NCBI GenBank assembly: GCA_026391715.1 | Contig: JAPLDO010000042.1 | Location: 1-64,000 of the forward strand | Length of the DNA stretch: 64,000 nucleotides | Origin: Bacteroidota bacterium | GTDB lineage: Bacteria; Bacteroidota; Bacteroidia; Bacteroidales; FEN-979 | Direction of reading: 5' to 3' | In this document: in pieces, positions 21,658 to 61,975 of the stretch | Position numbering within the stretch: position 1 is the stretch's first letter | Layout of the letters: every line of letters starts with the position of its first letter | The notes under the pieces: model-generated | The model's database searches: none | What the model was told of the DNA's origin: nothing | What the model saw: the letters and a program-made list of their open reading frames with translations, nothing else | Position numbers and translations under genes: made by a program

Positions 21658-22389
21658 CTAATGGATGATCAATTTAACGCAGGCAAACAGGAGAACAAGC
21701 ACAAGAGAGAGTTTGAAATATCGGATTGGTAAAACCTTTACAGAAGTTAACGACCCGATTAATCCACCCACAATAACTACGAAAATCCAAATATAAAAAT
21801 GCGGCGGCACAATCAGATTATCTATGCCAAGTCCTGCCAACCCAGCCAGGGAATTGCACAAAATGAACAGCGATGAATACAAACCGGTCTCTTTTACGCC
21901 CGCCCAATGCATGAAAATCAATATCGGACTGAGAATAATGCCGCCGCCTATGCCGATCATCCCCGATAAGAACCCCAACGCCATTCCGATTACCGCTGAA
22001 ATCAGAATAGATGGCGGAGGTTTAACATCGTAATCCTGCGATTGCCGGTACAACAAGCGGAGAAGAGCCACGAATAATAGCAATCCAAGAATCAGCCGGT
22101 AAGTGGATGAATTGATGTGAATCATGGCGCCAAGAAAAGCCATTGGAATTGACGGCAGAAGAAATGGAAGTATCAGTTTCCACCGCAACCGATACCCTTT
22201 GTTAAAATTGAAAAATGCTATTCCGGCAACAAAGAGATTAAGAATCAGAGCAGCGCTGCGAAAATAGAGCATGTTTATCTCGAAAATTGACATGATTGCC
22301 AAATATCCGCTCGCCCCGCCATGACCCACCGAAGAGTACAACATGGCAACGAGTAACATCGAAAATAACAATGCAAAAGTCCCTTCCAT
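21658..22389 (-). CDS. TauE/SafE-family sulfite/sulfur-compound exporter
   Basis: A 243-residue membrane protein with about seven to eight helices and two similar halves. Signatures are YSSVGHGGASGYLAIMS near the N terminus and LGFLSGMIGIGGGIILSPIL near residue 140, characteristic of TauE/SafE permeases. These move small anions such as sulfite, sulfoacetate or related compounds across the inner membrane. It lies between the MobB-like and ModE genes on the same strand (11 bases before the former), next to a sulfur-type reductase gene set, which fits export of a sulfur oxyanion product or substrate handling. Confidence 0.85.
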   Translation of the reverse strand: MEGTFALLFSMLLVAMLYSSVGHGGASGYLAIMSIFEINMLYFRSAALILNLFVAGIAFFNFNKGYRLRWKLILPFLLPSIPMAFLGAMIHINSSTYRLILGLLLFVALLRLLYRQSQDYDVKPPPSILISAVIGMALGFLSGMIGIGGGIILSPILIFMHWAGVKETGLYSSLFILCNSLAGLAGLGIDNLIVPPHFYIWIFVVIVGGLIGSLTSVKVLPIRYFKLSLVLVLLFACVKLIIH

Positions 22390-22470
22390 CTGTTTTCGTT
22401 GTTCCCTTGAAGGAACAACGCTTCAAAAATACAATTATTCTGATTACGCAGTAACTGCGGCTGAAGATTT

Positions 22471-22821
22471 CTATTCTTCTCTGAAAAACTGTTCCTGATC
22501 TGTTAGAAATTTAACAAAACTGATTTCAAAGCTCCGAAACCTGCCGATCATGCTCCTACCTGCTGCCGTGACTATAGTAGCGCCGCCTCCTTTTCCACCA
22601 TGACTGAAAGTAACCAAAGGCGACGACGAAAGCCGGTTGACCGATTTAATGGCATAGTAAGCTTTCCGGTACGACATTCCCATAGCTATTGCCGCTTTCC
22701 TCAAAGAACCAAGCTCTCCAATCTTTTCAAGCAATTCAACCCGCCCGGTTCCAATGAAATTTTCTCCCTCTGTTTCTAACCAGATTCTTCCTTTAGGTTC
22801 TGGGAAAACTTGATCCATCAT
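22471..22821 (-). CDS. modE: ModE N-terminal-type molybdate-responsive regulator
   Basis: A 116-residue winged-helix protein of the LysR/ModE type: GRVELLEKIGELGSLRKAAIAMGMSYRKAYYAIKSVN is the characteristic helix-turn-helix, followed by SHGGKGGGATIVTAAG. The C-terminal molybdate-binding TOBE domains of full ModE are absent, so it is the DNA-binding half only, a common stand-alone form. Divergent from the molybdopterin reductase operon, it probably regulates it. No molybdate ABC transporter genes are nearby. Confidence 0.82.
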   Translation of the reverse strand: MMDQVFPEPKGRIWLETEGENFIGTGRVELLEKIGELGSLRKAAIAMGMSYRKAYYAIKSVNRLSSSPLVTFSHGGKGGGATIVTAAGRSMIGRFRSFEISFVKFLTDQEQFFREE

Positions 22822-23251: not shown

Positions 23252-25498
23252 ATGAATCGCAGGAATTTCATCAGAATTTCAACCCTCGGAGCCGGAGGCG
23301 CCATGCTTGGCGGAATTATGTCGGGAAGCGGCAAAGAACCATCGTTACTCGATAGGTTAACAGGGAAATCGCCAACGGATGATTTTAAGTATTTGCGCAC
23401 GCCAACTTATTGTGAAGTCTGTTTCTGGAAGTGCGCTGGTTGGGTTTATAAAAATGACCAGGGCGAAATCTGGAAAATCATCGGAAATGAGATTGATCCG
23501 CATTGCAACGGCAGATTGTGCCCAAGAGGCACCGGCGGCGTTGGAATGTATTATGATCAGGATCGCCTGAAAACTCCAATGATTCGCACTGGCGAGAGAG
23601 GCAAACAATCGTTTAAACGCGCAAGCTGGGATGAGGCGCTTGATTTTGTGGCGAAAAAACTTGACCACATTGGCAAAAAATACGGACCGGAAACAGTTGC
23701 CCTGATTACTCACGGCTCTGGCGGAAAAATTCTTACCACCTTAATGAAAGCTTACGGTTCCGATTCCATTGCAGGTCCATCTTACGCGCAATGCAAAGGT
23801 CCTCGCGAAGCTGCCTTCAACCTCACCTTCGGGGCTTCGCTTGAATCGCCCGAGCCTACCGATATCAGGAATACCAAATGCCTTGTGCTTATTGGCAGTC
23901 ACCTCGGCGAAAATATGCACAATACCCAGGTTCAGGAGATGGCTGACGCCATTGACCGAGGCGCCTGCATAATCACAGTGGATCCGAGGTTTTCAACGGT
24001 TGCCGGGAAGTCGAAATTCTGGTTGCCCATTAAACCTGCCACCGACATCGCCCTTTTGTTAGCCTGGATGAATGTGCTGATTAACAACAATTGGTATGAT
24101 AAGGAATATATAGAAAAATATGCATCAGGATTCGACAAACTAAAAGATTATATTCAGCCTTTCACCCCCGAATGGGCTTATGGTATCACCACAATTGACC
24201 CGGTTAAGATCCATGATACCGCGAAGGAAATGGCAAATGCCGCGCCGGCGGTTATTATCCATCCGGGTCGCCATGTTACCTGGTATGGCGACGATACCCA
24301 GCGTTCGCGGGCAATCGCCATCCTGAACGCATTGCTTGGTTCGTGGGGGCGTCGCGGCGGGTTTTATCTTGCGGAATTAAAAGCGATCCCGGAGTACCCT
24401 CATCCGCCATTTCCACCTGTCAACAAATCATGGCGCGACATACTTGGCGATCAATATCCTTTTGCCGAATTGCCTCTCGCGAATGCTATTGTAGATGGCT
24501 CAATTCCAGGTCGCCTGAAGGATTTTCAATACCGCGGATGGATCGTCAATGGCTCAAACCTGAACATGACCATGCCCGACTCGCGGAAAACCCTCGAAGC
24601 AATTCAGAACCTTGAACTGCTTGTGGTCATTGATACTATGCCGATGGAGATCACCGGCTGGGCAGATGTGGTGTTGCCCGAATGTACCTACCTCGAACGG
24701 TATGATGTGCTGCGCAACGACCACAACCGCGAGCCGGTGATTGCCCTGCGTATGCCCGCCGCCGAACCAAAATACGACACAAAACCCGATTGGTGGATCG
24801 CCAAAGAATTGGCAAATAAAATGGGGCTTGGCAAATATTTCGACTGGAAAAATATCGAAGAGTTTCTCGATTATAAACTTCAGCGAATGGGAAGTTCACT
24901 GAAAGAGATGAAAAAAATTGGCGTTAAAAAGTACGCCCGCGAAGGCGGCGACCTCTATTTCTCTGCCGAAAACCCGCCAACTTATGATACGCCATCGGGA
25001 AAAATTGAACTTTACTCGACACAACTGGAACAAGCCGGATTTGATCCATTGCCTCGTTATACGACGCACGAAGAACCCCCCGAAGGCTATTACCGGTTGA
25101 ATTACGGGCGAACGCAGTCGCATACCTTCAGCCGCACTTCAAACAACCCAAACCTTTCTGCCATCATGCCTGAAAATGCCGTTTGGGTAAACCCGAAAGT
25201 TGCAGCCAACTGGCAATTTAAAGACGGGCAGGATGTGTGGTTGAAAAATCAGGACGGCGCAATAACGCCATTCCCGGCAAAAATCAGGATTACTGAACGG
25301 ATCCGATGGGATTCAGTTTATATCGTCCATGGATTCGGTCACACAAGTCAATTGCTTTCACGCGCCTACGGAAAAGGGGTCAGCGATGCGGCGCTGATTA
25401 CCAAAGTATTGATAGATCCTGTGATGGGAGGCACCGGCATGCGCGGAAATTTTGTCACGTTTTTAACTGAAAACCCGGATAAGGAGGTGAAAGCATGA
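23252..25498 (+). CDS. Molybdopterin oxidoreductase catalytic subunit (PsrA/PhsA-like)
   Basis: A 748-residue exported enzyme. The N terminus NRRNFIRISTLGAGG is a Tat-type signal. A [4Fe-4S] site follows, C54-x2-C57-x3-C61-x28-C90 (YCEVCFWKC ... LCPRG). The body has molybdopterin-bis-MGD binding motifs, and C181 (SYAQCKGPREAAF) is a candidate molybdenum ligand. It belongs to the DMSO-reductase superfamily, close to polysulfide/thiosulfate reductases; the precise substrate (polysulfide, thiosulfate, tetrathionate, or an arsenic or selenium oxyanion) is not decidable here. It overlaps the iron-sulfur subunit gene by four bases. Sulfur-transport and rhodanese genes follow, which favours a sulfur substrate. 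Confidence 0.85.
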   Translation: MNRRNFIRISTLGAGGAMLGGIMSGSGKEPSLLDRLTGKSPTDDFKYLRTPTYCEVCFWKCAGWVYKNDQGEIWKIIGNEIDPHCNGRLCPRGTGGVGMYYDQDRLKTPMIRTGERGKQSFKRASWDEALDFVAKKLDHIGKKYGPETVALITHGSGGKILTTLMKAYGSDSIAGPSYAQCKGPREAAFNLTFGASLESPEPTDIRNTKCLVLIGSHLGENMHNTQVQEMADAIDRGACIITVDPRFSTVAGKSKFWLPIKPATDIALLLAWMNVLINNNWYDKEYIEKYASGFDKLKDYIQPFTPEWAYGITTIDPVKIHDTAKEMANAAPAVIIHPGRHVTWYGDDTQRSRAIAILNALLGSWGRRGGFYLAELKAIPEYPHPPFPPVNKSWRDILGDQYPFAELPLANAIVDGSIPGRLKDFQYRGWIVNGSNLNMTMPDSRKTLEAIQNLELLVVIDTMPMEITGWADVVLPECTYLERYDVLRNDHNREPVIALRMPAAEPKYDTKPDWWIAKELANKMGLGKYFDWKNIEEFLDYKLQRMGSSLKEMKKIGVKKYAREGGDLYFSAENPPTYDTPSGKIELYSTQLEQAGFDPLPRYTTHEEPPEGYYRLNYGRTQSHTFSRTSNNPNLSAIMPENAVWVNPKVAANWQFKDGQDVWLKNQDGAITPFPAKIRITERIRWDSVYIVHGFGHTSQLLSRAYGKGVSDAALITKVLIDPVMGGTGMRGNFVTFLTENPDKEVKA

Positions 25499-26028
25499 GA
25501 CTTGCAATGGCAATTGATACCAAAAAATGCGTAGGCTGCAGCGATTGCGTAGTAAGCTGCCAGACTGAAAATAGCGTGCCTATCGGATATTGCCGCGATT
25601 GGATTGTGGAGGTCAACGACGGAACTTATCCACAGCTTGAGATGGAGATTCGCTCGGAACGATGCAACCAGTGTTCCAACTCCCCTTGCGTGCGTTGTTG
25701 CCCTACCGGCGCCAGTCATTACGATTACGGCGGAATTGTGCTGGTAACTCCGCACAAATGCATCGGCTGCGGAGCCTGCATTTCATCATGTCCTTATGAC
25801 GCCCGTTATCCCCATCCCAAAGGATATGTTGACAAATGTACTTTTTGCGTTCATCGCGTCAAAGAGGGATTGCCTCCGGCATGCGTTGCTGTGTGTCCAA
25901 CCAAGTGCCTCTATTTTGGCGATACTGACGATCAGAGGAGTGAAATATCCCTGGTTTTGAAAAAAAGGAAGTACAAACGGCTTATCCCCGAAGCCGGTAC
26001 AAATCCCAACCTTTACTTTTTAATCTGA
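25495..26028 (+). CDS. Four-cluster [4Fe-4S] electron-transfer subunit (PsrB-like)
   Basis: A 177-residue ferredoxin-type subunit with four cysteine groups: CVGCSDCVVSC (from C12), CNQCSNSPCVRCC, CIGCGACISSC and CTFC...CVAVCP, predicted to hold four [4Fe-4S] clusters. It passes electrons between the membrane subunit and the molybdenum subunit. There is no own signal peptide, as expected if it is co-exported with the Tat-signal partner. Translationally coupled to the gene upstream (ATGA overlap) and 5 bases before the membrane subunit gene. Confidence 0.9.
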   Translation: MRLAMAIDTKKCVGCSDCVVSCQTENSVPIGYCRDWIVEVNDGTYPQLEMEIRSERCNQCSNSPCVRCCPTGASHYDYGGIVLVTPHKCIGCGACISSCPYDARYPHPKGYVDKCTFCVHRVKEGLPPACVAVCPTKCLYFGDTDDQRSEISLVLKKRKYKRLIPEAGTNPNLYFLI

Positions 26029-26033
26029 AAGCC

Positions 26034-26975
26034 ATGAGAGAAGAGTTAATCATCAGCGGTCGCAACAACCCCATGGTTGATCCGGTTCTGAATATCTGGC
26101 ATTGGCAAATACCTTTGTATCTGTTCCTTGGCGGCGTGGCTGCCGGCATTTTGTTTTTTGCGTCGCTCTATTTTATTATGGGCAGGGAAAAAAAATATCC
26201 CGCCGCCATAAAATGGGCGCCCTTTCTCACCCCATTTTTATTGGTAATTGGATTGGGGGCGTTGTTTCTCGATCTCAACCACAAGGCTTTTTTCTGGCAA
26301 CTATATCTTACATTTCGCATTGAATCGCCGATGTCGTGGGGCGCCTGGATTCTGATGGTTATTACTCCTTTGTCCATCGTTTGGTGTGCAACATGGATAA
26401 AAGAGTTGAAACCCGGCTGGCATTGGAAATATCCTTTCCTCGATCAATGGGAGGCTTTTTTTAAAAAACATCGCCTTATAATCGCCTGGATTATGTTGAT
26501 CTCCGCAGTAATCCTCGGGGTTTATACCGGGATTCTGCTTTCAGCCTTTAACGCGCGACCGCTTTGGAATACCAGCATCCTGGGTCCCTTGTTTTTCGCC
26601 TCCAGTCTTTCAACCGGCGCCGCAGTTATTATGCTGATGGCGAAAAGTCACCTCGAACGCAACATCTTCAGCCGCATTGATCTGATCTTGATCGCAATTG
26701 AGATGTTCCTGATCGTTCACATGTTCATGGGTTTTCAGGCAAGTACCCAGGTTCAGATTGACGCTGCAAACATGTTCCTCGGAGGAGCTTACACGGAGGT
26801 ATTCTGGATTTTCGTGGTAATAATCGGATTATTGGTTCCGGCAATCCTCGAAATACTTGAATTGCTCGGATATAAAATTCCCATTATCATTACTTCATCG
26901 CTTATTTTAACCGGAGGAATCTTTTTAAGGTTTGTAATTGTTTATGCCGGGCAGGCGAGTAGGTATCTTTATTGA
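26034..26975 (+). CDS. NrfD/PsrC-type membrane quinol-interacting subunit
   Basis: A 313-residue integral membrane protein with about eight helices, of the NrfD/PsrC family: WHWQIPLYLFLGGVAAGILF at the start, then LDLNHKAFFWQLYLTFRIESPMSWGAW and FFASSLSTGAAVIM. It anchors the reductase and exchanges electrons with the menaquinone pool. Third gene of the reductase operon. Confidence 0.9.
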   Translation: MREELIISGRNNPMVDPVLNIWHWQIPLYLFLGGVAAGILFFASLYFIMGREKKYPAAIKWAPFLTPFLLVIGLGALFLDLNHKAFFWQLYLTFRIESPMSWGAWILMVITPLSIVWCATWIKELKPGWHWKYPFLDQWEAFFKKHRLIIAWIMLISAVILGVYTGILLSAFNARPLWNTSILGPLFFASSLSTGAAVIMLMAKSHLERNIFSRIDLILIAIEMFLIVHMFMGFQASTQVQIDAANMFLGGAYTEVFWIFVVIIGLLVPAILEILELLGYKIPIIITSSLILTGGIFLRFVIVYAGQASRYLY

Positions 26976-27058: not shown

Positions 27059-27592
27059 ATGGAAAAAACAACTTTATCTAACAGGACAAAATACCTGAAC
27101 CCATACATTGGCGGGGTATTGCTTGGTTTGGTACTGCTCGCTGCCAATTTTATTGCCGGACGGGGTCTTGGCGCGAGCGGAGCTATTAAAAGCGTAGTAG
27201 TCTCAACCACACAAACAGTGGCGCCAAAGTATGCCGAAAATGCCCGTTTTTTCAAGGAATATAAAGAAGAGCATTCCGGCTCGCCCATGAAAAACTGGTT
27301 GGTTTTCCAGATGCTTGGCGTGTTGGTTGGCGGCTTTGTCTCCGGGGCATTTGCCGGACGACTTAAATTCAAGGTTGAGCATAGTCCGAAAATTACATCG
27401 CGCCGGAGGTTGATTTTCGCACTGCTTGGCGGAATATTTTTCGGCGTTGGCTCCCAACTTGGAAGGGGTTGCACAAGCGGATCTGCCCTGAGCGGGATGG
27501 CTGTTTTATCCTTCGGGGGCATTATTACCATGATGGCAATTTTTGGCGGAGCTTATGCGCTCGCCTGGTTTTTCCGTAAAAACTGGATATAA
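27059..27592 (+). CDS. YeeE/YedE sulfur-transport half (first)
   Basis: A 177-residue membrane protein with about four helices. The signature FGVGSQLGRGCTSGSALSGMAVLSFGG contains the conserved cysteine of YeeE/YedE (TsuA-like) transporters, in which cysteines relay thiosulfate or sulfur across the inner membrane. In this lineage the transporter is often split into two ORFs; the second half follows 17 bases downstream. The split matches the two pseudo-symmetric halves of the single-chain protein. Confidence 0.85.
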   Translation: MEKTTLSNRTKYLNPYIGGVLLGLVLLAANFIAGRGLGASGAIKSVVVSTTQTVAPKYAENARFFKEYKEEHSGSPMKNWLVFQMLGVLVGGFVSGAFAGRLKFKVEHSPKITSRRRLIFALLGGIFFGVGSQLGRGCTSGSALSGMAVLSFGGIITMMAIFGGAYALAWFFRKNWI

Positions 27593-27609: not shown

Positions 27610-28200
27610 ATGGGACCATTAGCAGTCAATGATATAATTTCTTCCAATACCAATTTTTTTCTCGCATTTGTGATTGGTATCGGATTCGGGTTTGTACTCG
27701 AACAATGCGGTTTCTCTTCCAGCCGTAAACTTGCCGGACTTTTTTACGGATACGACATGGTCGTTTTGAAGGTCTTTTTCACAGGAGGCGTTACAGCCAT
27801 GCTTGGATTACTGTTTTTCAGCCTTTTCGGATGGGTTGATCTCGGCATGGTGTATGTTAACCCTACCTTTCTTGCCTCCGCCGTTGTGGGAGGGCTCATC
27901 ATGGGCGCAGGGTTCATCATGGGCGGCTTTTGCCCGGGAACAAGTTTTTGCGGCGCGGCAATCGGGAAGATTGACGCCATGATTTTCATTCTCGGATTGT
28001 TTATCGGCGTCTATTTTTATGCCTTCGGCTATCCGCTGTTCGAAACCCTGTATAAGGCAACTCCCATGGGATCGCCAAAAATTTCAACCATGATCGGACT
28101 TAGCGATGGAATCTTCGCGCTGATCCTTGTTGTAGTGGCTCTCGGAATGTTTTATGTATCGGAATGGGTGGAGAAGACATTTCCAAGAGAGGAATATTAA
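27610..28200 (+). CDS. YeeE/YedE sulfur-transport half (second)
   Basis: A 196-residue membrane protein with EQCGFSSSRKLAGLFYG and MGGFCPGTSFCGAAIGKIDA, the two conserved cysteine motifs of YeeE/YedE transporters. Together with the preceding gene it should make a complete sulfur-compound (probably thiosulfate) transporter. The stop codon is 17 bases before the ATG of the rhodanese-like gene. Confidence 0.87.
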   Translation: MGPLAVNDIISSNTNFFLAFVIGIGFGFVLEQCGFSSSRKLAGLFYGYDMVVLKVFFTGGVTAMLGLLFFSLFGWVDLGMVYVNPTFLASAVVGGLIMGAGFIMGGFCPGTSFCGAAIGKIDAMIFILGLFIGVYFYAFGYPLFETLYKATPMGSPKISTMIGLSDGIFALILVVVALGMFYVSEWVEKTFPREEY

Positions 28201-28217: not shown

Positions 28218-28844
28218 ATGAAACCTTTGCATTACCTCACATTAGTCCTTTTGATACTGGCGGTCATCATCGCCCTCGTACCGCAAAATACGACCAGACC
28301 TTATAAATTAACCGCGGAACAGTTGCTGTCAGAAATCCGCACCGGAACCCAGTTTGTCAGTCCCGACGAGGTAGCTGATAAAATTATTCAGAAGGATCCA
28401 TCCATCCAACTGATAGATGTTCGTAACCCCCGCGAATTTGATATGTTCAGCTTGCCGGGAGCTATAAATATTCCGCTTCAGGATATCCTGTCGGAAGCCA
28501 ATTATGAAGCGCTAAATCAGGGCGCCAAAATGAACATCCTCTATTCAAATGGTTCAACAGAAGCCAATGAAGCATGGTTGCTGACCCGGCAACTGGGTTT
28601 TCAGAACAACTATGTTTTGCAAGGCGGACTCAATTACTGGATGGAAAAAATCATGAACCCTGAAAAGCCAGGTAATCTTGCCGCCAATGATGAAATTGCT
28701 CTGTATGATTTCCGTAAGGCGGCGTCTGCCGCATTGGGCGGTGGAAATGTTACCGCAATTGCTCCTGCCGCAAAAGACGCCGGGGCTCCCAAACCAGGCG
28801 TGGTTCCTGTGAAGAAAAAGAAAAAAGCCTCCGGAGGTTGCTGA
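28218..28844 (+). CDS. Membrane-anchored rhodanese-like protein lacking the active-site Cys
   Basis: A 208-residue protein with an N-terminal hydrophobic anchor (LTLVLLILAVIIALV) and one rhodanese domain (about 45-145): LIDVRNPREFDMFSLPGAINIPL and VLQGGLNYWMEKI are typical. The active loop, usually YCxxGxR, reads ILYSNGSTEANEAW, so Ser110 replaces the sulfur-carrying cysteine. The only cysteine in the whole chain is the last residue, C208, after an Ala/Pro-rich tail and KKKKKASGGC. I chose ATG 28218 because an earlier in-frame ATG (28164) overlaps the transporter gene and lacks the leader position. It may bind sulfane sulfur through the terminal cysteine, or be a non-catalytic binding protein. 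Confidence 0.82.
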   Translation: MKPLHYLTLVLLILAVIIALVPQNTTRPYKLTAEQLLSEIRTGTQFVSPDEVADKIIQKDPSIQLIDVRNPREFDMFSLPGAINIPLQDILSEANYEALNQGAKMNILYSNGSTEANEAWLLTRQLGFQNNYVLQGGLNYWMEKIMNPEKPGNLAANDEIALYDFRKAASAALGGGNVTAIAPAAKDAGAPKPGVVPVKKKKKASGGC

Positions 28845-28853
28845 TCCTGGAAA

Positions 28854-29414
28854 TCACACGAGATCATTAGTAGAATTCACATTCTTGAAAACATAAGCCG
28901 GGGTTTCACCGGCTAAATCCCCCACGGACATCACTCTGTTGGATATGTCTGTTATCATATCCAGCGGACTTAGCCTTCCACTTTCAATATTTGCAGCGAT
29001 CTGCTGAAGCAGATCCCGGTGATAAAAACCACAAAGCGGTTCAACAAATCCATCGTGAGTGGGGACAAGCAGTTTGTCGGCATGTGGAAGCCCGGCAATC
29101 AATAATTCAATCAAACCTTTTGATACATTCGGCATGTCGCAGGTAAGGACGAGGTTCCAGGGGGTTTCGCTTACCTCCAATCCCGCATGAATACCTACCA
29201 GCGGCGCCTTGATCGGGAACCTGTCGCCGATAACCGGAAATCCTATTGAATCAAGCTCATGGCTGTTGGAAACAATCAGAATCCGGTTTGTAAATTGCAA
29301 CGCCAGATCAATGGAAAATTGAATTAATGGTTTCCCGCGAAAAGCCATTAGCGCTTTGTTGGCGCCCATCCGCCGGCTTCGTCCGCCGGCAAGAATTATG
29401 GCAGTGAAATTCAT
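28854..29414 (-). CDS. mobA: Molybdenum cofactor guanylyltransferase MobA
   Basis: A 186-residue nucleotidyltransferase. AIILAGGRSRRMGANKAL is the GTP-binding signature; LVLTCDMPNVS holds the metal-binding aspartate; LCGFYHRD follows. It joins GMP to molybdopterin to give the guanine-dinucleotide cofactor needed by the DMSO-reductase-family enzyme encoded 3 kb upstream. It is convergent with the rhodanese-like gene, whose stop is 9 bases away, with no recognisable terminator between. Confidence 0.92.
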   Translation of the reverse strand: MNFTAIILAGGRSRRMGANKALMAFRGKPLIQFSIDLALQFTNRILIVSNSHELDSIGFPVIGDRFPIKAPLVGIHAGLEVSETPWNLVLTCDMPNVSKGLIELLIAGLPHADKLLVPTHDGFVEPLCGFYHRDLLQQIAANIESGRLSPLDMITDISNRVMSVGDLAGETPAYVFKNVNSTNDLV

Positions 29415-29446
29415 GGAAATTAGTTTCGGGTTTCAGATTCAGCTTT

Positions 29447-29481
29447 CGTCCCTCGTCCCTCGTCCCTCGTCCCTCGTCCCT
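29447..29481. repeat. 7-bp tandem repeat (CGTCCCT) x5
   Basis: Five perfect units between mobA and the DUF302 gene; the array abuts the DUF302 stop codon (29484-29486). Same unit length as the GAAAGAA array at 27003, but a different sequence. Not coding. Confidence 0.9.
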
Positions 29482-29483
29482 CG

Positions 29484-29876
29484 TTATTTCCCCAAACTAA
29501 CAATGATCCCCTGCAGAATCCCCGTCACCTCAATTGCCAGCTCCCCCAAAGCCGGATTTTCTATAGCCATCATTGAAGCCATAGGATTCACTGCCGAAAC
29601 TTCGGTGGTTCCATTACCTTTATCAATTACGAGTACGTTGCAGGGAAGCATCGTCCCTATTTTTTCTTCGGCTTGCAGGGCTTTATAGGCAAAACCCGGA
29701 TTGCACATCCCAAGTATTTTGTATTCCTTCATCTCCACGCCAAGCTTTTCATTTAGTTTCTGGCGCATATCAATTTCTGAAATTAACCCGAAACCTTTCT
29801 CTTTCAAGGCGGCAAGAGCTTTTGATTCAGCCTCGGCAAAGCTGCAATTCAGAATAGTTGTGAAATAGTAATTCAT
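29484..29876 (-). CDS. DUF302 domain protein
   Basis: A 130-residue protein matching the DUF302 family: FAEAESKALAALKEKGFGLISEIDM, then YKILGMCNPGFAYKALQAEEKIGTMLPCNVLV. DUF302 proteins often occur with sulfur-oxidation, rhodanese and thioredoxin genes in anaerobes; the biochemical role is not established. Here it sits 2 bases after the thioredoxin gene and with OsmC in one minus-strand run. The two cysteines (CNPG, LPCN) are conserved in many members and may bind a metal or sulfur. Confidence 0.85.
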   Translation of the reverse strand: MNYYFTTILNCSFAEAESKALAALKEKGFGLISEIDMRQKLNEKLGVEMKEYKILGMCNPGFAYKALQAEEKIGTMLPCNVLVIDKGNGTTEVSAVNPMASMMAIENPALGELAIEVTGILQGIIVSLGK

Positions 29877-29878
29877 AA

Positions 29879-30301
29879 TTATTTGTATTTAAGCATGTTA
29901 ATTTTATTGATTAAAAAATCCTTTTGCTTTACGCCCACGATGCGGTCCACCTCCTTGCCATTCCTGAAAATGATGATGGTTGGAATGTTCCTTACGGCGT
30001 ATTTCTGAGATATTGATTGATATTCTTCGATGTTGACTTTACAAATTGCCGCCTGGTCGCCAATCTCTTCCGCAATTTCATTAAGAATTGGCGCCATCAT
30101 TTTGCAAGGCATGCACCAGGAAGCCCAGAAATCAACCAGGGCTATTCCTTTACTTATCTGTTGTGCAAAGTTTTTATCGGTCAGAATTTTAATCTTGGCG
30201 CTATCGGGTCCTGTGGGCGTTTTTTTTACTTTCCGGTACATAAAGAACATATAGCCGGAAAAAAGGACAAGCACGGCAATAATTATCAGGATGGTTATCA
30301 T
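29879..30301 (-). CDS. Membrane-anchored thioredoxin
   Basis: A 140-residue protein: an N-terminal transmembrane helix (ITILIIIAVLVLFSGYMFFM) and a thioredoxin domain with active site FWASWCMPCK (C63, C66). The middle residues Met-Pro differ from the usual Gly-Pro. The orientation (short N-terminus, positive residues after the helix) is ambiguous. It probably reduces disulfides or persulfides connected with the adjacent sulfur genes; it has a near-zero gap to DUF302. Confidence 0.88.
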   Translation of the reverse strand: MITILIIIAVLVLFSGYMFFMYRKVKKTPTGPDSAKIKILTDKNFAQQISKGIALVDFWASWCMPCKMMAPILNEIAEEIGDQAAICKVNIEEYQSISQKYAVRNIPTIIIFRNGKEVDRIVGVKQKDFLINKINMLKYK

Positions 30302-30381
30302 TGTAATATTATAGGTGAAAATATGTGTACTGCAAAGATGGGAAATAATGACAATTTATTGTAAATTCCAAATGCGCTTTT

Positions 30382-30804
30382 TTATCCCGTTTTAATCAGG
30401 ATTTCATAAGTGATTTCCATCGCTTTTTTATAAACGAATGAGACTCCGCAGTAGCGTTCCTGGGAGAGATCAATCGCTTTTTTCAACTGGTCAACATGTA
30501 AATCGTTGCCGGTGAATTCATATACTATGTGCATCTTTTCATAGTGTTTCGGATGATCTTCGGTAACATCTGCTTCCACACGGATATTCAGACCGGAAAA
30601 TTCTACCCGCATTTTTTTCAGCATGGAAACCACATCCATGCCGGTACACCCTGCAAGCGCCGCAAGCATCAGCTCCTTGGGACGTGAGCCCTTGTTTTCG
30701 CCGCCAACTACAGGAAGCGCATCCATCATCACGCTATGCCCGCTAACGTTTGCATCAAAAAGCATATTTCCTTTCCAGGCGGTGTTTACGATATGTTTTG
30801 CCAT
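30382..30804 (-). CDS. OsmC-family peroxiredoxin-like protein
   Basis: A 140-residue OsmC/Ohr-type protein with the two catalytic cysteines, C53 in ALAGCTGMDVVSML and C119 in SQERYCGVSF. Members reduce organic peroxides or persulfides; the YhfA-like subgroup is often linked to sulfur metabolism. It lies upstream of thioredoxin and DUF302 on the same strand (80-base gap), which suggests a thiol/persulfide defence role next to the sulfur reductase. Confidence 0.88.
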   Translation of the reverse strand: MAKHIVNTAWKGNMLFDANVSGHSVMMDALPVVGGENKGSRPKELMLAALAGCTGMDVVSMLKKMRVEFSGLNIRVEADVTEDHPKHYEKMHIVYEFTGNDLHVDQLKKAIDLSQERYCGVSFVYKKAMEITYEILIKTG

Positions 30805-55238: not shown

Positions 55239-56072
55239 TTATTGAGATATGAATTGTTTCCCCAACCAATCAACCCACTCCTCCATTCCCTTACCCGTTT
55301 TCGCCGACATCAGAATAAATTCAAGATCCGGGTTCAGTTGCCGGGCATATTGCATGGCTGCTTCCATACTGAAATCAACATACGGCAGCAGGTCGGTTTT
55401 GTTGATGATGCAGAGATTGGAAGTCTGAAACATATAGGGATATTTCAGCGGTTTATCGTCGCCTTCGGTAACGCTGATCACCACTACCCGCTTGTGTTCG
55501 CCAAGGTCAAACATTGCCGGGCAAACGAGGTTGCCCACGTTTTCGATAAACAGAATTGAATCATTTTCAACTTCCATTTTTTTCAATGCAAGATGGATCA
55601 TTTTCGCGTCAAGGTGGCAACCCGAACCAGTGTTGATCTGAATAGCGGGCGCGCCAGATTTCTCGATGCGTTCGGCGTCGCGCGCTGTTTGCTGATCCCC
55701 TTCGATGACAAAGATCTTCCGGTTTTTGATCATGGACTCAATGGTCTTCTCCAGGATGGTTGTTTTACCTGAACCCGGCGAACTGACAAGGTTCAGCGTC
55801 AGCACATTCTTCCCTTCAAAATAACCGCGGTTCCGTTCAGCGAGGCGGTTGTTTTCCGAAAGGATATCCATGTTGAGGTTGATCGCCTTTTTAGTCGGAT
55901 GGTCGTGGGAATGAGCATGGCTGTGTCCATCGTGATTGTGTGAGAGGTCGTGTGGGTGTGAGTGAACGTGACCGTCATGGTCATGCTCGTGGTTATGCTC
56001 GTGATCGTGTTGGCGATGATGATCGCCAATTTTAAATTCGCCGGGGTTTCCGCATCCGCAGGTTTCGCACAT
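55239..56072 (-). CDS. hypB: Hydrogenase nickel incorporation GTPase HypB
   Basis: A 277-residue GTPase. The N terminus has the CETCGCG high-affinity nickel motif, then a long His-rich stretch (about residues 15-62, more than 20 His) for nickel storage. The G domain (about 95-270) has Walker A SSPGSGKTT, a metal-binding GSGCHLDAKM motif, and NKTDLL. It inserts Ni into [NiFe]-hydrogenase together with HypA. Last gene in the hyp run, after an 84-base gap from hypA that contains a repeat fragment. Confidence 0.94.
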   Translation of the reverse strand: MCETCGCGNPGEFKIGDHHRQHDHEHNHEHDHDGHVHSHPHDLSHNHDGHSHAHSHDHPTKKAINLNMDILSENNRLAERNRGYFEGKNVLTLNLVSSPGSGKTTILEKTIESMIKNRKIFVIEGDQQTARDAERIEKSGAPAIQINTGSGCHLDAKMIHLALKKMEVENDSILFIENVGNLVCPAMFDLGEHKRVVVISVTEGDDKPLKYPYMFQTSNLCIINKTDLLPYVDFSMEAAMQYARQLNPDLEFILMSAKTGKGMEEWVDWLGKQFISQ

Positions 56073-56094
56073 ATAAATTTGATTTATAATTTTA

Positions 56095-56118
56095 CAATCA
56101 TACCATCCCTTCGGGATT
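56095..56118. repeat. TTCGGG-type repeat arm
   Basis: CAATCATACCATCCCTTCGGG resembles one arm of the elements at 17229 and 22931. It lies between hypA and hypB, followed by three TCTTCTCAA-type short direct repeats (56133-56162) that run into the hypA stop codon. Confidence 0.45.
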
Positions 56119-56156
56119 CTGTTTCAAAACCAATCTTTTCAATCTTCTCAATCTTC

Positions 56157-56513
56157 TCAATCTATAATCCTGTCATCCGCCTGCATCGAAACCACCCTGA
56201 ATTCTTTTCCGCCAGAAATCTCCGAGGGAAAAATCCTGCATTGAGGACAGGTATCCAGCCGGTGGGTCATCACAAATTCTGAATTACAAGAGTGACATCT
56301 CCCTTTTCCTGGAGTTCGGATCATCTCAATTACTGCATTGTCCAGAATTGTATCCCTCACCAGCATTTCGAGCGCAGATTGAAAAGCATCCGCTTCAACG
56401 CCGCTCAGGTCGCCAACTTCGATCTGAAGTTCCTGAATTGTTGAAACGTTGTTTTTCACCGCTTCCCGTTTAACCAGTTCAATTACTTCGAGAGCCAGTG
56501 ATAGTTCATGCAT
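56157..56513 (-). CDS. hypA: Hydrogenase nickel incorporation protein HypA
   Basis: A 118-residue protein starting MHELSLALEVIELV, in which Met1-His2-Glu3 is the conserved nickel-binding N terminus. The zinc site consists of two cysteine pairs, CHSC and CPQC, about 70-95 residues in. It delivers Ni with HypB. The C terminus (DDRIID) ends within short direct repeats. It follows hypE by 12 bases. Confidence 0.95.
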   Translation of the reverse strand: MHELSLALEVIELVKREAVKNNVSTIQELQIEVGDLSGVEADAFQSALEMLVRDTILDNAVIEMIRTPGKGRCHSCNSEFVMTHRLDTCPQCRIFPSEISGGKEFRVVSMQADDRIID

Positions 56514-56525
56514 GTTGATATCGCT

Positions 56526-57548
56526 TTAACATATTCTTGGCAACGGGTCGCCCGTTAATGTATCAATAATTCGCCTGCCGCCGGTTTCGGTTTTCAGCGC
56601 TACTTTTCCAGGGTGATCGCCGGTAACTCTTCCAATTATAGCGCTCTTGCCGCCCAGGATATTTTTCTTCATCACCGTCAGGATTTTATCAGCTTCCTCA
56701 TGACCGGCAACGATTATCACCTTTCCTTCGTTGGCAATATGAAGCGGATCAAAGCCGAGTATTTCACACATTGCCGCCACGCCTCTGCTTATAGGCAATG
56801 CAGATTCATCAATTTCGATTCCAAAACCGGTTTTTCCAGTTAGTTCATTCAAAACGGTGGCAACGCCGCCACGCGTAGGATCGCGCATGAATTTCACAGA
56901 AACGGTTTGATCCAGTATTTCCCTGATCAGGTGGTTCAGCGAGGCGCAATCGGAAATTACCGGCGATTTGAAATTAAAGGATTCACGGGCGCTCATAACC
57001 GCCATTCCATGATCGCCGATGGCGCCATTAATCAGGATTATATCGCCGGGCTTGATATCGCGAGCCTTGCTCACAAAACGGTTTTCCTTTCTAACGCTGC
57101 CGATTCCTGCGGTATTGATGAAGAGTTTGTCGCATTTTCCTTTATTGACAACCTTTGTGTCGCCAGTCACGATAGTCACACGGGCATTCCGCGCCTCATC
57201 GGCAAGCGAGCTCACTATCAATTCAAGTTCTTTCATTGAAAAACCTTCTTCAATGATAAATGAAACGCTGAGATAAAGCGGGTCGGCGCCGGATACTGCA
57301 AGGTCGTTTACGGTGCCGCAAACAGCCAGTTTGCCGATGTTTCCGCCGGGGAAAAACAGGGGATCAATCACAAACGAATCGGTTGTAAAGGCAATATCCG
57401 CTGTATTTGCAGGAAGGATAGCTGCATCGGTCTGTTCATTCAGAATCGGATTCGCAAAGTACTTTAAGAATAAATTCTCTATGAGATTGTGCATCATCCT
57501 GCCGCCATTTCCATGACTCAGCAATATTTTATCTTCCACTGGATTCAT
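56526..57548 (-). CDS. hypE: Hydrogenase maturation protein HypE
   Basis: A 340-residue member of the PurM/ThiL superfamily. ILLSHGNGGRMMHNLIE at the start, GDTKVVNKGKCDKLFINTAGIG in the middle, and the C-terminal PRIC whose cysteine is carbamoylated by HypF and dehydrated to thiocyanate as the source of the CN ligands. Starts in an ATGA overlap with hypD. Confidence 0.96.
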   Translation of the reverse strand: MNPVEDKILLSHGNGGRMMHNLIENLFLKYFANPILNEQTDAAILPANTADIAFTTDSFVIDPLFFPGGNIGKLAVCGTVNDLAVSGADPLYLSVSFIIEEGFSMKELELIVSSLADEARNARVTIVTGDTKVVNKGKCDKLFINTAGIGSVRKENRFVSKARDIKPGDIILINGAIGDHGMAVMSARESFNFKSPVISDCASLNHLIREILDQTVSVKFMRDPTRGGVATVLNELTGKTGFGIEIDESALPISRGVAAMCEILGFDPLHIANEGKVIIVAGHEEADKILTVMKKNILGGKSAIIGRVTGDHPGKVALKTETGGRRIIDTLTGDPLPRIC

Positions 57549-58624
57549 AAGCGATATTTATAAAAGGCGGCACAATTACCTTCGCCCGAAACCATACAGG
57601 CGCCAACCGGAAATGAGGGTGTGCATACTTTGGCAAAGAGGCTGCAATCATTCGGAGTTTTAAGTCCCCGAAGGATAGATCCGCAGATACACCCTTTAGG
57701 ATCGGCTGGTTCAGGAACGGTGACATTGAAGTTTTTTTCGGCGTCGAAGAAGGAAAATTCGTTGCGAATCTTCAAACCGCTTTTTGGAATAATGCCAAGT
57801 CCACGCCAACGGTCGTCTTTCAGTTCAAAAACCTGCGATAAAAAACCTTGCGCTATTTTATTTCCTTCGCTCTGAACTACTCTTTGATACTGGATTTCCA
57901 CTTTTGGCAAGCCGGATTCAAACTGACGCACAAGCATCAAAATTGCCTGCATCAGATCAACCGGTTCGAATCCTGTAACAACAACGCCCAACTTGAAAAC
58001 ATCAGCGAGATCGTTATAAATAGCGGTTCCGGTTATGGCGCTTACATGACCGGGGGCGATAAAACCATCAATCTTAACTCCTTCGTTTACCAGCGCTTTC
58101 ATCACGGGAGGCATGACTTTATGAGCGCTGAGGACAAAAAAATTCTGAAGTTTTGCTTTTTTTGCCTCCACAATGGTTGCAGCCGTAGCAGGAGCGGTAG
58201 TTTCAAAACCGATTCCAGGGAAAATAACCTGCTTTTCAGGATTTTTTCCGGCAATTTCAAGAGCTTCGAGCGGTGAATAGATAATCCGGATATCGCGCCC
58301 GGCGGCGTTCTCTTTTTCAAGGGAACTAACTGAACCCGGCACGCGAATCAGATCGCCATAAGTTGTTATGACGACGCCCGGGATTTTACTGTAAGCGATA
58401 GCGGCGTCGAGAAAATGCTGACTTGAAACGCAAACCGGACAACCAGGTCCGGATATCAGCCGGATGGTTGGAGGCAGCAGAGAATGAATACCGAACCGGT
58501 GGATTGCCATAGTGTGACCGCCGCAAACCTCCATCAGCGTGATCTCTTTTGTGGAAATTCTTTTCACCTCTTCGGAAAGGGCGAGGATTATGTCTTTATT
58601 TCGAAATTCGGTGAGATATTGCAT
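57545..58624 (-). CDS. hypD: Hydrogenase maturation protein HypD
   Basis: A Fe-S scaffold protein of 359 residues with MEVCGGHTMAIHRFGI, ISGPGCPVCVSSQHFLD and GFETTAPATAA, the cysteine motifs that carry the Fe(CN)2CO group, and C-terminal cysteines CICGSILRG / C...C for the [4Fe-4S] cluster. ATG 58624 is chosen because MQYLTEFRNKD matches the family start; an earlier ATG (58663) would overlap hypC by 26 bases. Overlaps hypE by four bases. Confidence 0.94.
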   Translation of the reverse strand: MQYLTEFRNKDIILALSEEVKRISTKEITLMEVCGGHTMAIHRFGIHSLLPPTIRLISGPGCPVCVSSQHFLDAAIAYSKIPGVVITTYGDLIRVPGSVSSLEKENAAGRDIRIIYSPLEALEIAGKNPEKQVIFPGIGFETTAPATAATIVEAKKAKLQNFFVLSAHKVMPPVMKALVNEGVKIDGFIAPGHVSAITGTAIYNDLADVFKLGVVVTGFEPVDLMQAILMLVRQFESGLPKVEIQYQRVVQSEGNKIAQGFLSQVFELKDDRWRGLGIIPKSGLKIRNEFSFFDAEKNFNVTVPEPADPKGCICGSILRGLKTPNDCSLFAKVCTPSFPVGACMVSGEGNCAAFYKYRL

Positions 58625-58637
58625 GTACTTGTCGTTT

Positions 58638-58859
58638 TTAACCACTACTGCCTGCCACTTCATTCAAAAGCCGGAGGGTTTCCGCAGCCTCTTCAGCATC
58701 CACCTTCTGAATGGCGAAACCGGCATGAAGCATCACATAATCGCCGGGATTCACATCGTCGAGCAACAGAATACTCGCCCGGTATTCAACATCTTCAATG
58801 GTTAACAGAGCTGTCGCCCCATCAACGCTGATCACTTTTGCCGGTATTGCTAAACACAT
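58638..58859 (-). CDS. hypC: Hydrogenase maturation chaperone HypC
   Basis: A 73-residue protein with the conserved MCLAIPAKVISVDG start, in which Cys2 contacts HypD and the hydrogenase precursor, and GDYVMLHAGFAIQKVDAEEA. It overlaps the end of hypF by 10 bases, consistent with one hypFCDEAB operon. Confidence 0.95.
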   Translation of the reverse strand: MCLAIPAKVISVDGATALLTIEDVEYRASILLLDDVNPGDYVMLHAGFAIQKVDAEEAAETLRLLNEVAGSSG

Positions 58860-61213
58860 AATTTATCTCTCCTTTTTGACGCTATTGCCAGTTGCCCCAG
58901 CGCGATTCCTCCGTCGTTGGTGGGAACAGCGGCATGAGCGTAAACTTCAAACTTATTTTTCTTCAGTAAATCTATACTTCCTTCGAGCAGATATTTATTC
59001 TGAAAAACCCCGCCCGACAGCACAACTTTATTTATTTCTTCTCTTCCGCGGATGACATTTGCAGTTTCAAAGATAACAGAAATTATGGTATTGTGGAACT
59101 TTGATGCAATTATCGAGACGTCAGCGCCATTGATCAGATCGTCAACAATTCCACGGATTGTGGCGTCGAGTCTGATAATCTTGTCAATTTCAAAATGATA
59201 AAGTTCCTTACAGTTCTTATTAATCAGAGATTCGAGTCTCATTGGACCTTCGGCATGAAAAGAGGCTATCTGACACAAGCCAAGCAGCGATGCAACGGCG
59301 TCGAAAAGCCGTCCGGCGCCGGAAGTAAGCGGACAGTTTATGTTCCGGTCGATCATCCTGACCAGATTATTGATTTTTTCCAGATCAATTTCCCGGAAGA
59401 GAGGAAGATCAAGTTTGATGAAATCCTTACCGAAAACCTTGTAAAGCCAGGAAACGGCCATTCGCCAGGGTTCTTCGGTCGCTGCATCGCCTCCCGGAAG
59501 CGGGACATATTCAAAATGGGTAATCCGTTTGTAGTCCAATAAGTCGCAAACTAAAAACTCAGAACCCCAGATGTGACCATCATCCCCGTATCCCGTACCA
59601 TCCATTGCTACTCCGATCACCTTCTCGTCGAGGTGGTGTTCGGCCATACTCGCGGCAATGTGGGCATGGTGATGCTGCACATGAACGATTGGTAAATCCC
59701 TGAAATTTGCCGCAGTTTTTGTGGAGATGTATTCAGGATGCATATCCGCAGCGAGCAATGTAGGTTTTACGCGAAACAACCGCAGAAATTGCGAAATGGT
59801 TTGTTCGTAAAATTGTGCGGTTTCCAATCCCTGAAGGTCGCCGATGTGTTGACTTTGAAACGCTTTATTCCCTTTTCCAACACAAAAACAGTTAGTAAGT
59901 TCGGCGCCGAAAGCAATAATTCCATCGGCGTTTAGCGCCGTGCGGACAGGCGCCGGCACATAACCGCGCGAACGGCGGAAAATTCGCTCTTTTCCGTCAA
60001 TAATCCTTACAACCGAATCGTCAGTCCGGTTATAAATATCGCGGTTGTGCAGCACAATAGCATCCACGCAAGATGAGAACTGTGCAAGCGCCTCGTGGTT
60101 GTCAATCAGTATAGGTTCGCTGCTGAAATTTCCGCTGGTAAGCACAATGGCTGATGTTTTTAACCGCTGAAAGAGCATGTAGTGAAACGGCAAATATGGA
60201 AGCATTAACCCCAGAAGATTAACCCCGGCGTTAATATTTTTTGCTAATGGCGGCAGGTTGTCACAACTTTTCATTTCCAGCAGAACAATAGGTCGCCGCC
60301 ATGATAAAAGCGACTGCTCTTCAGTTTTTTCAACTGTTGCATACCGTTTCAATGTTTCGATGTTGCTGAACATCACCGCAAAGGGTTTTCCGTCGCGGTT
60401 TTTGATATTTCTCAGTTTTTCAACGGCAGCCTCATTGAAGGCGTCACAAGCGAGGTGCATACCTCCCAGTCCTTTGATAAGCGCGATTCCGCCGTTTCCG
60501 ATACATTTTGAAACATGATCGGTAATGACTTCAATTGACTCGCTGATCTTGTTTCCTTCAACAAATAATTCATATCTGGGACCGCAGATGGCGCAGGCAG
60601 TGGGTTGAGCATGGAATCGGCGGTCGAGAATATTTTCATACTCTTTCCGGCAATCCGGGCACATCGGAAAGGGCTGCATGGTGGTTTTTACCCTGTCGTA
60701 AGGCAGATCGCGAATAATGGTAAACCGCGGTCCGCAATTGGTGCAGTTTACGAAAGCATAATTCAAGCGATTTCCCTCTTTTTCAATATCTTCCATGCAT
60801 TCGCTGCAAACTGCAAGGTCGGGACTGATTTCCGTGACGTCATCGGAACAATCGGCGCTTTGAAGGATACTGAACTTTGTAAATATCTCAGGTTCGATTT
60901 CATTTGATGAAACATTTTCAATCATTGAAGCTAATGGCGCCTCCAATCTCAAAGAATTAAGAAATTGAGCGGCGTTTGAAGGATTCCCGCTGATGCAGAT
61001 CAGAACATTCTCATTTGTATTTTGCACCCATCCGGTAAGACCAAGATTTGTGGCAAGACGATATACAAACGGACGAAACCCGACTCCCTGTACCAATCCG
61101 GTTACCGTTATGTGGAGTGTTTGGTTTTTCAAGAGATTGAGTGGATTGAGTGGATTGAGTGGAACTTGGAACCTGGGATTTGGGATTTTGATAATAAATG
61201 TAAATTTATACAT
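58850..61213 (-). CDS. hypF: Carbamoyltransferase HypF
   Basis: A 787-residue protein with the full HypF architecture: acylphosphatase domain (about 32-120; TVTGLVQGVGFRPFVYRLA), two zinc-finger pairs (CSECMEDI...CTNCGPRF; CPDCRKEY...CAICGP), a YrdC-like domain (about 225-410) and a Kae1-like carbamoyltransferase domain (to 787; VHVQHHHAHIAASMAEH and MDGTGYGDDG). It transfers carbamoyl to HypE. The first ~30 residues (IPNPRFQVPLNPLNPLN) come from a 9-base tandem repeat and AATCCC-type sequence, not from the family fold; the native start may have been lost there. First gene of the operon, divergent from the permease gene 33 bases away. Confidence 0.94.
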   Translation of the reverse strand: MYKFTFIIKIPNPRFQVPLNPLNPLNLLKNQTLHITVTGLVQGVGFRPFVYRLATNLGLTGWVQNTNENVLICISGNPSNAAQFLNSLRLEAPLASMIENVSSNEIEPEIFTKFSILQSADCSDDVTEISPDLAVCSECMEDIEKEGNRLNYAFVNCTNCGPRFTIIRDLPYDRVKTTMQPFPMCPDCRKEYENILDRRFHAQPTACAICGPRYELFVEGNKISESIEVITDHVSKCIGNGGIALIKGLGGMHLACDAFNEAAVEKLRNIKNRDGKPFAVMFSNIETLKRYATVEKTEEQSLLSWRRPIVLLEMKSCDNLPPLAKNINAGVNLLGLMLPYLPFHYMLFQRLKTSAIVLTSGNFSSEPILIDNHEALAQFSSCVDAIVLHNRDIYNRTDDSVVRIIDGKERIFRRSRGYVPAPVRTALNADGIIAFGAELTNCFCVGKGNKAFQSQHIGDLQGLETAQFYEQTISQFLRLFRVKPTLLAADMHPEYISTKTAANFRDLPIVHVQHHHAHIAASMAEHHLDEKVIGVAMDGTGYGDDGHIWGSEFLVCDLLDYKRITHFEYVPLPGGDAATEEPWRMAVSWLYKVFGKDFIKLDLPLFREIDLEKINNLVRMIDRNINCPLTSGAGRLFDAVASLLGLCQIASFHAEGPMRLESLINKNCKELYHFEIDKIIRLDATIRGIVDDLINGADVSIIASKFHNTIISVIFETANVIRGREEINKVVLSGGVFQNKYLLEGSIDLLKKNKFEVYAHAAVPTNDGGIALGQLAIASKRRDKLCV
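61136..61162. repeat. 9-bp tandem repeat (ATTGAGTGG) x3 at the HypF N terminus
   Basis: Three perfect units, translated on the minus strand as PLNPLNPLN. Beside it, 61164-61192 holds AATCCC/AGTTCC-type sequence like that at 32236 and 50870. The repeat lies before the conserved acylphosphatase domain. Confidence 0.85.
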
Positions 61214-61246: not shown

Positions 61247-61975
61247 ATGCTTACCTTTCTCACAGGTTTTGTTGCAAGTGTGGCTCATGTTGTCACAGGT
61301 CCCGACCATCTTGCAGCGGTAACGCCGCTGGCGATAGACAGCCGCAAGAAATCATGGATGATTGGATTATCGTGGGGTTTGGGGCATACCATAGGTATGT
61401 TGCTTATCGGATTGTTATTTGTCCTTTTCAAAGAGATATTGCCGGTTGAACTCATTTCGAAGCATAGCGAAACAGCTATCGGCATACTCCTCATCGGGAT
61501 TGGAGGATGGGCTATTTTGCGAACTTTTATGCGTCATTCGCATGGAAACCGACCTCATTCCCATTTTCATACCCGTCCGTTTTTGTATGCGCATTTTCAT
61601 AAACATTCGCATAGCGCTGAGTTGGAACATAAGGGTAGCCATCCTGACGGGCATGAGCATGACCACCCGGTTGCAGTTAAACAAAATGCTTTTACAGCGC
61701 TTTCCATAGGTATCTTCCACGGCTTTGCAGGTTTCAGCCATTTGTTTGCGCTGCTTCCTTCGCTCGCCCTGCCAACGGTATGGGCTTCCGTTATCTATGT
61801 TACAGCTTTTGCCTTAGGCACTATACTTACCATGGTTTTATTTGCCTTCATCCTCGGACTTGTGGCTTTCCGTTCGGTGGTAAAAGATAACCAGGTGTTT
61901 TTGAAATGGTTCACCTTTGGCGGAGGTTTGCTTGCAATAGCCATCGGTATTTTATGGCTCATCCATCCGGTTTGA
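61247..61975 (+). CDS. Nickel/cobalt-type permease with His-rich loop (NicO/HupE-like)
   Basis: A 242-residue membrane protein with six helices. HVVTGPDHLAAVTPLA in the first helix parallels the HX4DH metal signature of NiCoT/RcnA permeases; GLSWGLGHTIGMLLIG and GIFHGFAGFSHLFALLPSL are similar conserved segments. A hydrophilic loop (about 95-142) has 17 histidines. Probably imports or handles nickel for the hydrogenase maturation genes divergent from it. A TauE/UreH-type fold is the alternative label; the ion is inferred from motif and context. Confidence 0.8.
   Translation: MLTFLTGFVASVAHVVTGPDHLAAVTPLAIDSRKKSWMIGLSWGLGHTIGMLLIGLLFVLFKEILPVELISKHSETAIGILLIGIGGWAILRTFMRHSHGNRPHSHFHTRPFLYAHFHKHSHSAELEHKGSHPDGHEHDHPVAVKQNAFTALSIGIFHGFAGFSHLFALLPSLALPTVWASVIYVTAFALGTILTMVLFAFILGLVAFRSVVKDNQVFLKWFTFGGGLLAIAIGILWLIHPV

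Follow-up and report, generated by a model that had tools for sequence, protein, structure and literature searches.

The protein encoded at positions 28218–28844 (+) of the DNA analyzed here is a rhodanese by fold, not by catalytic loop, as it lacks the nucleophilic loop cysteine and has its sole cysteine as its last residue, and this combination was confirmed to be a conserved family trait across Bacteroidota. We consider it rather probable that the protein is an extracytoplasmic carrier of sulfane sulfur built on a rhodanese fold, which would use its tail-cysteine arm to serve a pair of YeeE transporter halves. The window, i.e. the whole stretch of DNA that was analyzed, comprises positions 1–64,000 of contig JAPLDO010000042.1 (assembly GCA_026391715.1) from a Bacteroidota bacterium (FEN-979).

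The reading frame at 28218–28841 gives 208 residues ending in KKKKKASGGC, followed by the stop codon at 28842–28844; a longer in-frame start exists at 28164, but the alignment of homologues begins at the 28218 start instead. Translation together with the Pfam match bore out the description, given in an earlier note, of a rhodanese-like protein with a single cysteine at its very end (C208, codon tgc at 28839–28841). The match to Rhodanese (PF00581, E 3.9e-15) covers residues 49–143 (28362–28646, +), with rhodaneses being also the best PDB fold matches (Foldseek, E 2e-5). In the former active-site loop YSNGSTEA (residues 109–116; 28542–28565, +), starting with Y109, the usual position of the nucleophile is taken by Ser110 (codon 28545–28547), as had been noted. 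A structural model built on 55 sequences shows a helix at residues 3–20, overlapping the hydrophobic stretch of an N-terminal membrane anchor (residues 5–21; 28230–28280, +), and a rhodanese core with pLDDT of about 80. The C-terminal arm (residues 176–208; 28743–28841, +) is best read as flexible, in agreement with the earlier proposal, because pLDDT is below 50 over most of it, and near the tail the confidence of the model is too low to place C208 by Ser110. From the anchor, from lipoprotein signal peptides predicted in some relatives and paralogues, and from the twin-arginine motif of the neighboring PsrA-like protein (see below), we infer that the rhodanese domain probably faces outward. 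The 5.0 Mb source genome contains only one further rhodanese-domain match, an MnmH-like protein (tRNA selenouridine synthase).

The terminal cysteine proved to be conserved well beyond close relatives. A close copy was found in 13 of 19 same-genus genomes including the source, the twelve others being 80–88% identical, and relatives are found across the order. When 14 sequences with identities down to 33% were aligned, the linker was unalignable and G206, G207 and C208 were invariant. Scanning 84,980 species genomes gave 525 stretches encoding relatives, of which 80 were kept, mostly from Bacteroidales (Marinifilum, Labilibaculum, Carboxylicivirga, Prolixibacteraceae and MAGs from lakes and sediments). 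All 140 distinct relatives had a cysteine aligned with C208, this being the only cysteine in 122 of them, and 139 of the 140 lacked a cysteine at position 110 (Ser in 114, Gly in 12, Ala in 10). The tails ended in GGC (113), GGC plus one residue (13), EGC (12), DGC (1) or EECPDLN (1), so that the conserved element is Gly/Glu-Gly-Cys, at times with one residue added; the lysine run was ruled out as the key feature, since it is not conserved and other tails read IQVEGGC, PVSGGC or KKKKKEGC. Homologues adjoining YeeE genes, when aligned, likewise kept the terminal cysteine and lacked the loop cysteine. A frameshift creating the tail, an assembly artefact or mere chance could be ruled out, as the terminal cysteine is retained by relatives in over 100 genomes. 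The proposal that selection acts on the terminal cysteine together with the missing loop cysteine has thereby withstood the tests, by homologues and by frameshift, that had been named for its refutation.

Because those 140 relatives came from a profile that included the tail, the search was repeated with the domain only, in 295 genomes of the order, and the 30 top matches were examined together with 40 additional regions. Among 101 complete frames in this tail-blind set, 94 ended in a G-x-C-type tail, three had a cysteine within the last seven residues and four had no terminal cysteine, with a loop cysteine being present in six. The picture was thus the same, and selection bias from a GGC-trained profile was ruled out. 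At four loci (L148, L228, L234 and L244) the hit lacked the tail cysteine, yet another rhodanese of the same locus kept it. The tail was also found on rhodaneses retaining the loop cysteine and is therefore not simply a replacement for it.

The gene follows two YeeE/YedE halves and a molybdenum reductase, as had been pointed out, and that reductase can now be named PsrABC. Its catalytic subunit is a PsrA-like molybdopterin protein with a twin-arginine motif (23252–25498, +), which aligned over its whole length (residues 1–737, E 1.1e-192) with 2vpw_A, a subunit of the crystallized Thermus thermophilus polysulfide/thiosulfate reductase; the alignment includes the cysteine that serves as the Mo ligand in that family. 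The next two genes encode a PsrB-like iron-sulfur subunit (25495–26028, +; Fer4_11 and NrfC/DsrO/TtrB-type models) and a PsrC/NrfD-like membrane subunit (26034–26975, +; PF03916, E 7.2e-48), so that PsrA-, PsrB- and PsrC-type subunits in one operon make up a predicted polysulfide reductase. An NrfD query did not have the Thermus psr locus among its matches, and a plasmid search with the rhodanese query gave distant rhodaneses only. Upstream of the operon (21658–22821, −) are genes for a TauE-family exporter and a ModE-type molybdate regulator, neighbors fitting a molybdenum-enzyme operon, which recur in same-genus loci.

Between reductase and rhodanese are two half-size YeeE transporters, Yee1 (27059–27592, +; PmpA-like, PF04143 positions 173–309) and Yee2 (27610–28200, +; PmpB-like, PF04143 positions 13–155), covering the C-terminal and N-terminal halves of Sulf_transp, respectively, and being the only YeeE proteins of the source genome. 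PmpA and PmpB are known as a split YeeE, whose cysteines match C293 and C91 of TsuA that are required for transport (PMC11582611). Each half here has one conserved channel cysteine, C138 of Yee1 being kept in 127 of 127 and C108 of Yee2 in 133 of 133 readable rows. PmpA and PmpB as described have about 130 residues and are encoded beside SoxYZ-fusion or PQQ genes, whereas Yee1 and Yee2 have 177 and 196 residues and accompany a tail-cysteine rhodanese, to which Yee2 is in places fused. The order PsrA-like (MoA)–FeS–NrfD–Yee1–Yee2–rhodanese, on one strand, was found in nearly every long locus, making the rhodanese the sixth gene of a syntenic unit.

Other classes of Bacteroidota, as well as some Bacteroidales, have the rhodanese joined to the C-terminus of Yee2 in fusions of about 400 residues that keep the GGC end. 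The reductase at these loci is a cytochrome of the octaheme tetrathionate reductase family (TIGR04315, E about 1e-174 in examples) together with a cytochrome b561; a conserved unit of octaheme cytochrome, cytochrome b561, Yee1 and Yee2-rhodanese fusion was seen at L162–L171. In a third setting, genes for HdrA-like, TusA, predicted DsrE-like and full-length YeeE proteins accompany lipoprotein rhodaneses having both a canonical loop cysteine and an SSGGCGG or PSGGCGG end. The element constant across settings is YeeE with a tail-cysteine rhodanese. As further observations, lipoprotein rhodaneses with a loop cysteine and the GGCGG motif of SoxY were seen next to such TusA, DsrE-like, HdrA-like and YeeE genes at L154, L155, L174 and L175, and divergent Yee2-rhodanese fusions ending in GGLCS or GGLCG, some of them from the window's own genus or family, have a large protein containing CxxCH haem motifs as their neighbor at L150–L153, L172 and L173.

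Two or three rhodaneses lie side by side at many loci, with tails matching among the members of a locus: at L177 three proteins end in KRKKKEVEGGCG or RRKKKEVEGGCG, and at L143 three proteins end in VPVKKKQVGGGCE. When first and second paralogues were compared at 17 loci, identity over the nine residues preceding GGC was 67%, vs 25% with permuted loci, with none of 20,000 permutations reaching the observed value, and the identity of the bodies was 27.7% within a locus and 27.6% between loci. This suggests a partner shared by the rhodaneses of a locus. Gene conversion of 3′ ends, with no shared partner, may contribute, but as a full account of the tail matching we find it fairly doubtful. The L117 tails are indeed identical in DNA over 12 codons, but in most pairs synonymous sites have diverged and the residues are alike (overall, 58 codon differences are synonymous and 50 nonsynonymous), and conversion would leave the conservation of the cysteine itself untouched. 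A general sorting tag was ruled out, since the 2408 six-frame ORFs in the loci that reach 120 codons include 204 with an ending of this kind, every one of them from the rhodanese family. The third rhodanese at L143, L145, L146, L147 and L177 is a two-domain protein whose locus-specific GGC tail is that of the loop-less rhodaneses there; several two-domain rhodaneses have lipoprotein signals and loop cysteines, and could possibly be loaders of the arm.

In the carrier reading, the reactive cysteine would have shifted from the loop to a swinging arm like that of SoxY. The anchor would keep the rhodanese domain at the outer surface of the cytoplasmic membrane, where the nucleophile-less pocket may dock partners or bind sulfur anions. 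The terminal Gly-Gly-Cys on its disordered arm would become persulfidated, C208 thus holding sulfane sulfur, and would swing between partners as the SoxY arm does with its GGCGG. A lineage-specific reductase, PsrABC here and octaheme tetrathionate reductase elsewhere, would carry out the sulfur chemistry, with the arm being loaded by it or supplying it, and the arm would probably pass sulfur to or from the split YeeE of PmpA/PmpB type as its constant partner. The acceptance of sulfane sulfur by the terminal cysteine, as once proposed, is plausible from this context of Psr, octaheme tetrathionate reductase, YeeE and a SoxY-like GGC; covalent attachment through the same cysteine, offered at the time as another role, found no support. 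We favor the carrier reading because the tail cysteine is universal and the loop cysteine nearly always missing among the relatives, also with the tail-blind profile; because the PsrABC–Yee1–Yee2–rhodanese order is nearly invariant, the fusions keep GGC and the channel cysteines of both transporter halves, with their role in transport (PMC11582611), are conserved; because genes of sulfur metabolism adjoin in all three settings, including Hdr/TusA/DsrE with GGCGG-tailed rhodaneses; and because paralogues share tails rather than bodies, the tail is flexible and some relatives are predicted lipoproteins. Counting against it, the loss of the loop cysteine could mean a purely structural role, a few tail-blind hits lack the terminal cysteine, and the tail also occurs on rhodaneses with a loop cysteine. 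In addition, TusA, a candidate cytoplasmic acceptor should sulfur move inward, had no match in the source genome, whereas most of the control genomes gave one.

Precedents for such a carrier exist in SoxY, DsrC and Sud. SoxY binds sulfur on the cysteine of its GGCGG motif (PMC6067878), and likewise has a glycine-flanked C-terminal cysteine, a likely extracytoplasmic location and a sulfur-gene context; GGC was found in 126 of the 140 relatives and the exact GGCGG in some lipoprotein relatives, whereas the window protein ends in GGC only. It also differs in having a rhodanese fold and a membrane anchor, no SoxZ partner was seen, and Pfam matched Rhodanese only, so that by the searches made the two are not homologous; a search for SoxY gave no match in the source genome and none in the control genomes. 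DsrC binds sulfur on the penultimate cysteine of its C-terminal arm (PMC3397948), and DsrC/TusE thereby resemble the window protein in carrying sulfur on a flexible arm, but are cytoplasmic with another fold and other partners. YeeD/TsuB and TusA, the partners of YeeE/TsuA, are also small sulfur carriers encoded beside YeeE, with YeeD being cytoplasmic and TusA-like, whereas the window protein would act on the opposite face of the membrane. Sud shares the rhodanese fold, but its sulfur-carrying cysteine sits in the rhodanese loop, which here reads YSNGST. In Wolinella, Sud carries polysulfide for PsrABC in the periplasm (PMC2628731), and by profile it is a distant relative (1qxn, E 1e-5). The window protein may function in the manner of SoxY or Sud, but the features tested place it in neither family.

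That the arm acts as Sud does, offering sulfur from polysulfide to the active site of PsrA, or to the octaheme enzyme, with YeeE being served separately, is made conceivable by this kinship and by the Psr genes lying directly upstream, but seems unlikely to us, as lineages differ in their reductase but share YeeE, and it is YeeE, not the reductase, to which the rhodanese is fused. Still less probable is a disulfide tether, by which the terminal cysteines would link paralogues, or the protein and its transporter, and carry no sulfur. Matching tails on adjacent paralogues would agree with it, but many genomes, the source included, have a single copy, and the constant sulfur-gene context and the likeness to the GGCGG of SoxY would be left unexplained. 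Handling of selenium or a metal by C208 appears very improbable, for although the transporter halves gave weak scores with selenium-related YedE models, the TsuA thiosulfate model scored higher for Yee1, the neighboring enzymes are sulfur-compound reductases, and one cysteine without other conserved ligands makes a poor metal site.

Extending the carrier reading, the phylum may use such proteins widely as extracytoplasmic carriers for YeeE-type transporters, the rhodanese domain having ceded its chemistry to a portable, swinging C-terminal GGC arm common to several rhodaneses of a locus and recognized by one partner, as an outside counterpart of cytoplasmic YeeD/TusA; we see nearly as much reason to accept as to doubt this wider proposal. 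How extracytoplasmic sulfane sulfur reaches YeeE-type transporters has been discussed for SoxYZ and SoxT (PMC11582611), and a carrier with one conserved cysteine, linked or even fused to its transporter, makes this transfer addressable with single-residue mutants. In the literature that our search reached, to which most subscription journals did not belong, no description of the tail-cysteine rhodanese arrangement was found. Many Bacteroidota proteins annotated as 'rhodanese' cannot use the textbook loop-cysteine mechanism, and this affects the annotation of sulfur cycling in anoxic lakes and sediments.

Elsewhere in the window, genes for MobA, DUF302, a membrane-anchored thioredoxin and OsmC follow the operon (28854–30804, −) and recur in several same-genus loci, and an apparent hydrogenase maturation (Hyp) cluster lies at 55239–61213 (−); after it, at 61247, comes a possible nickel/cobalt transporter.
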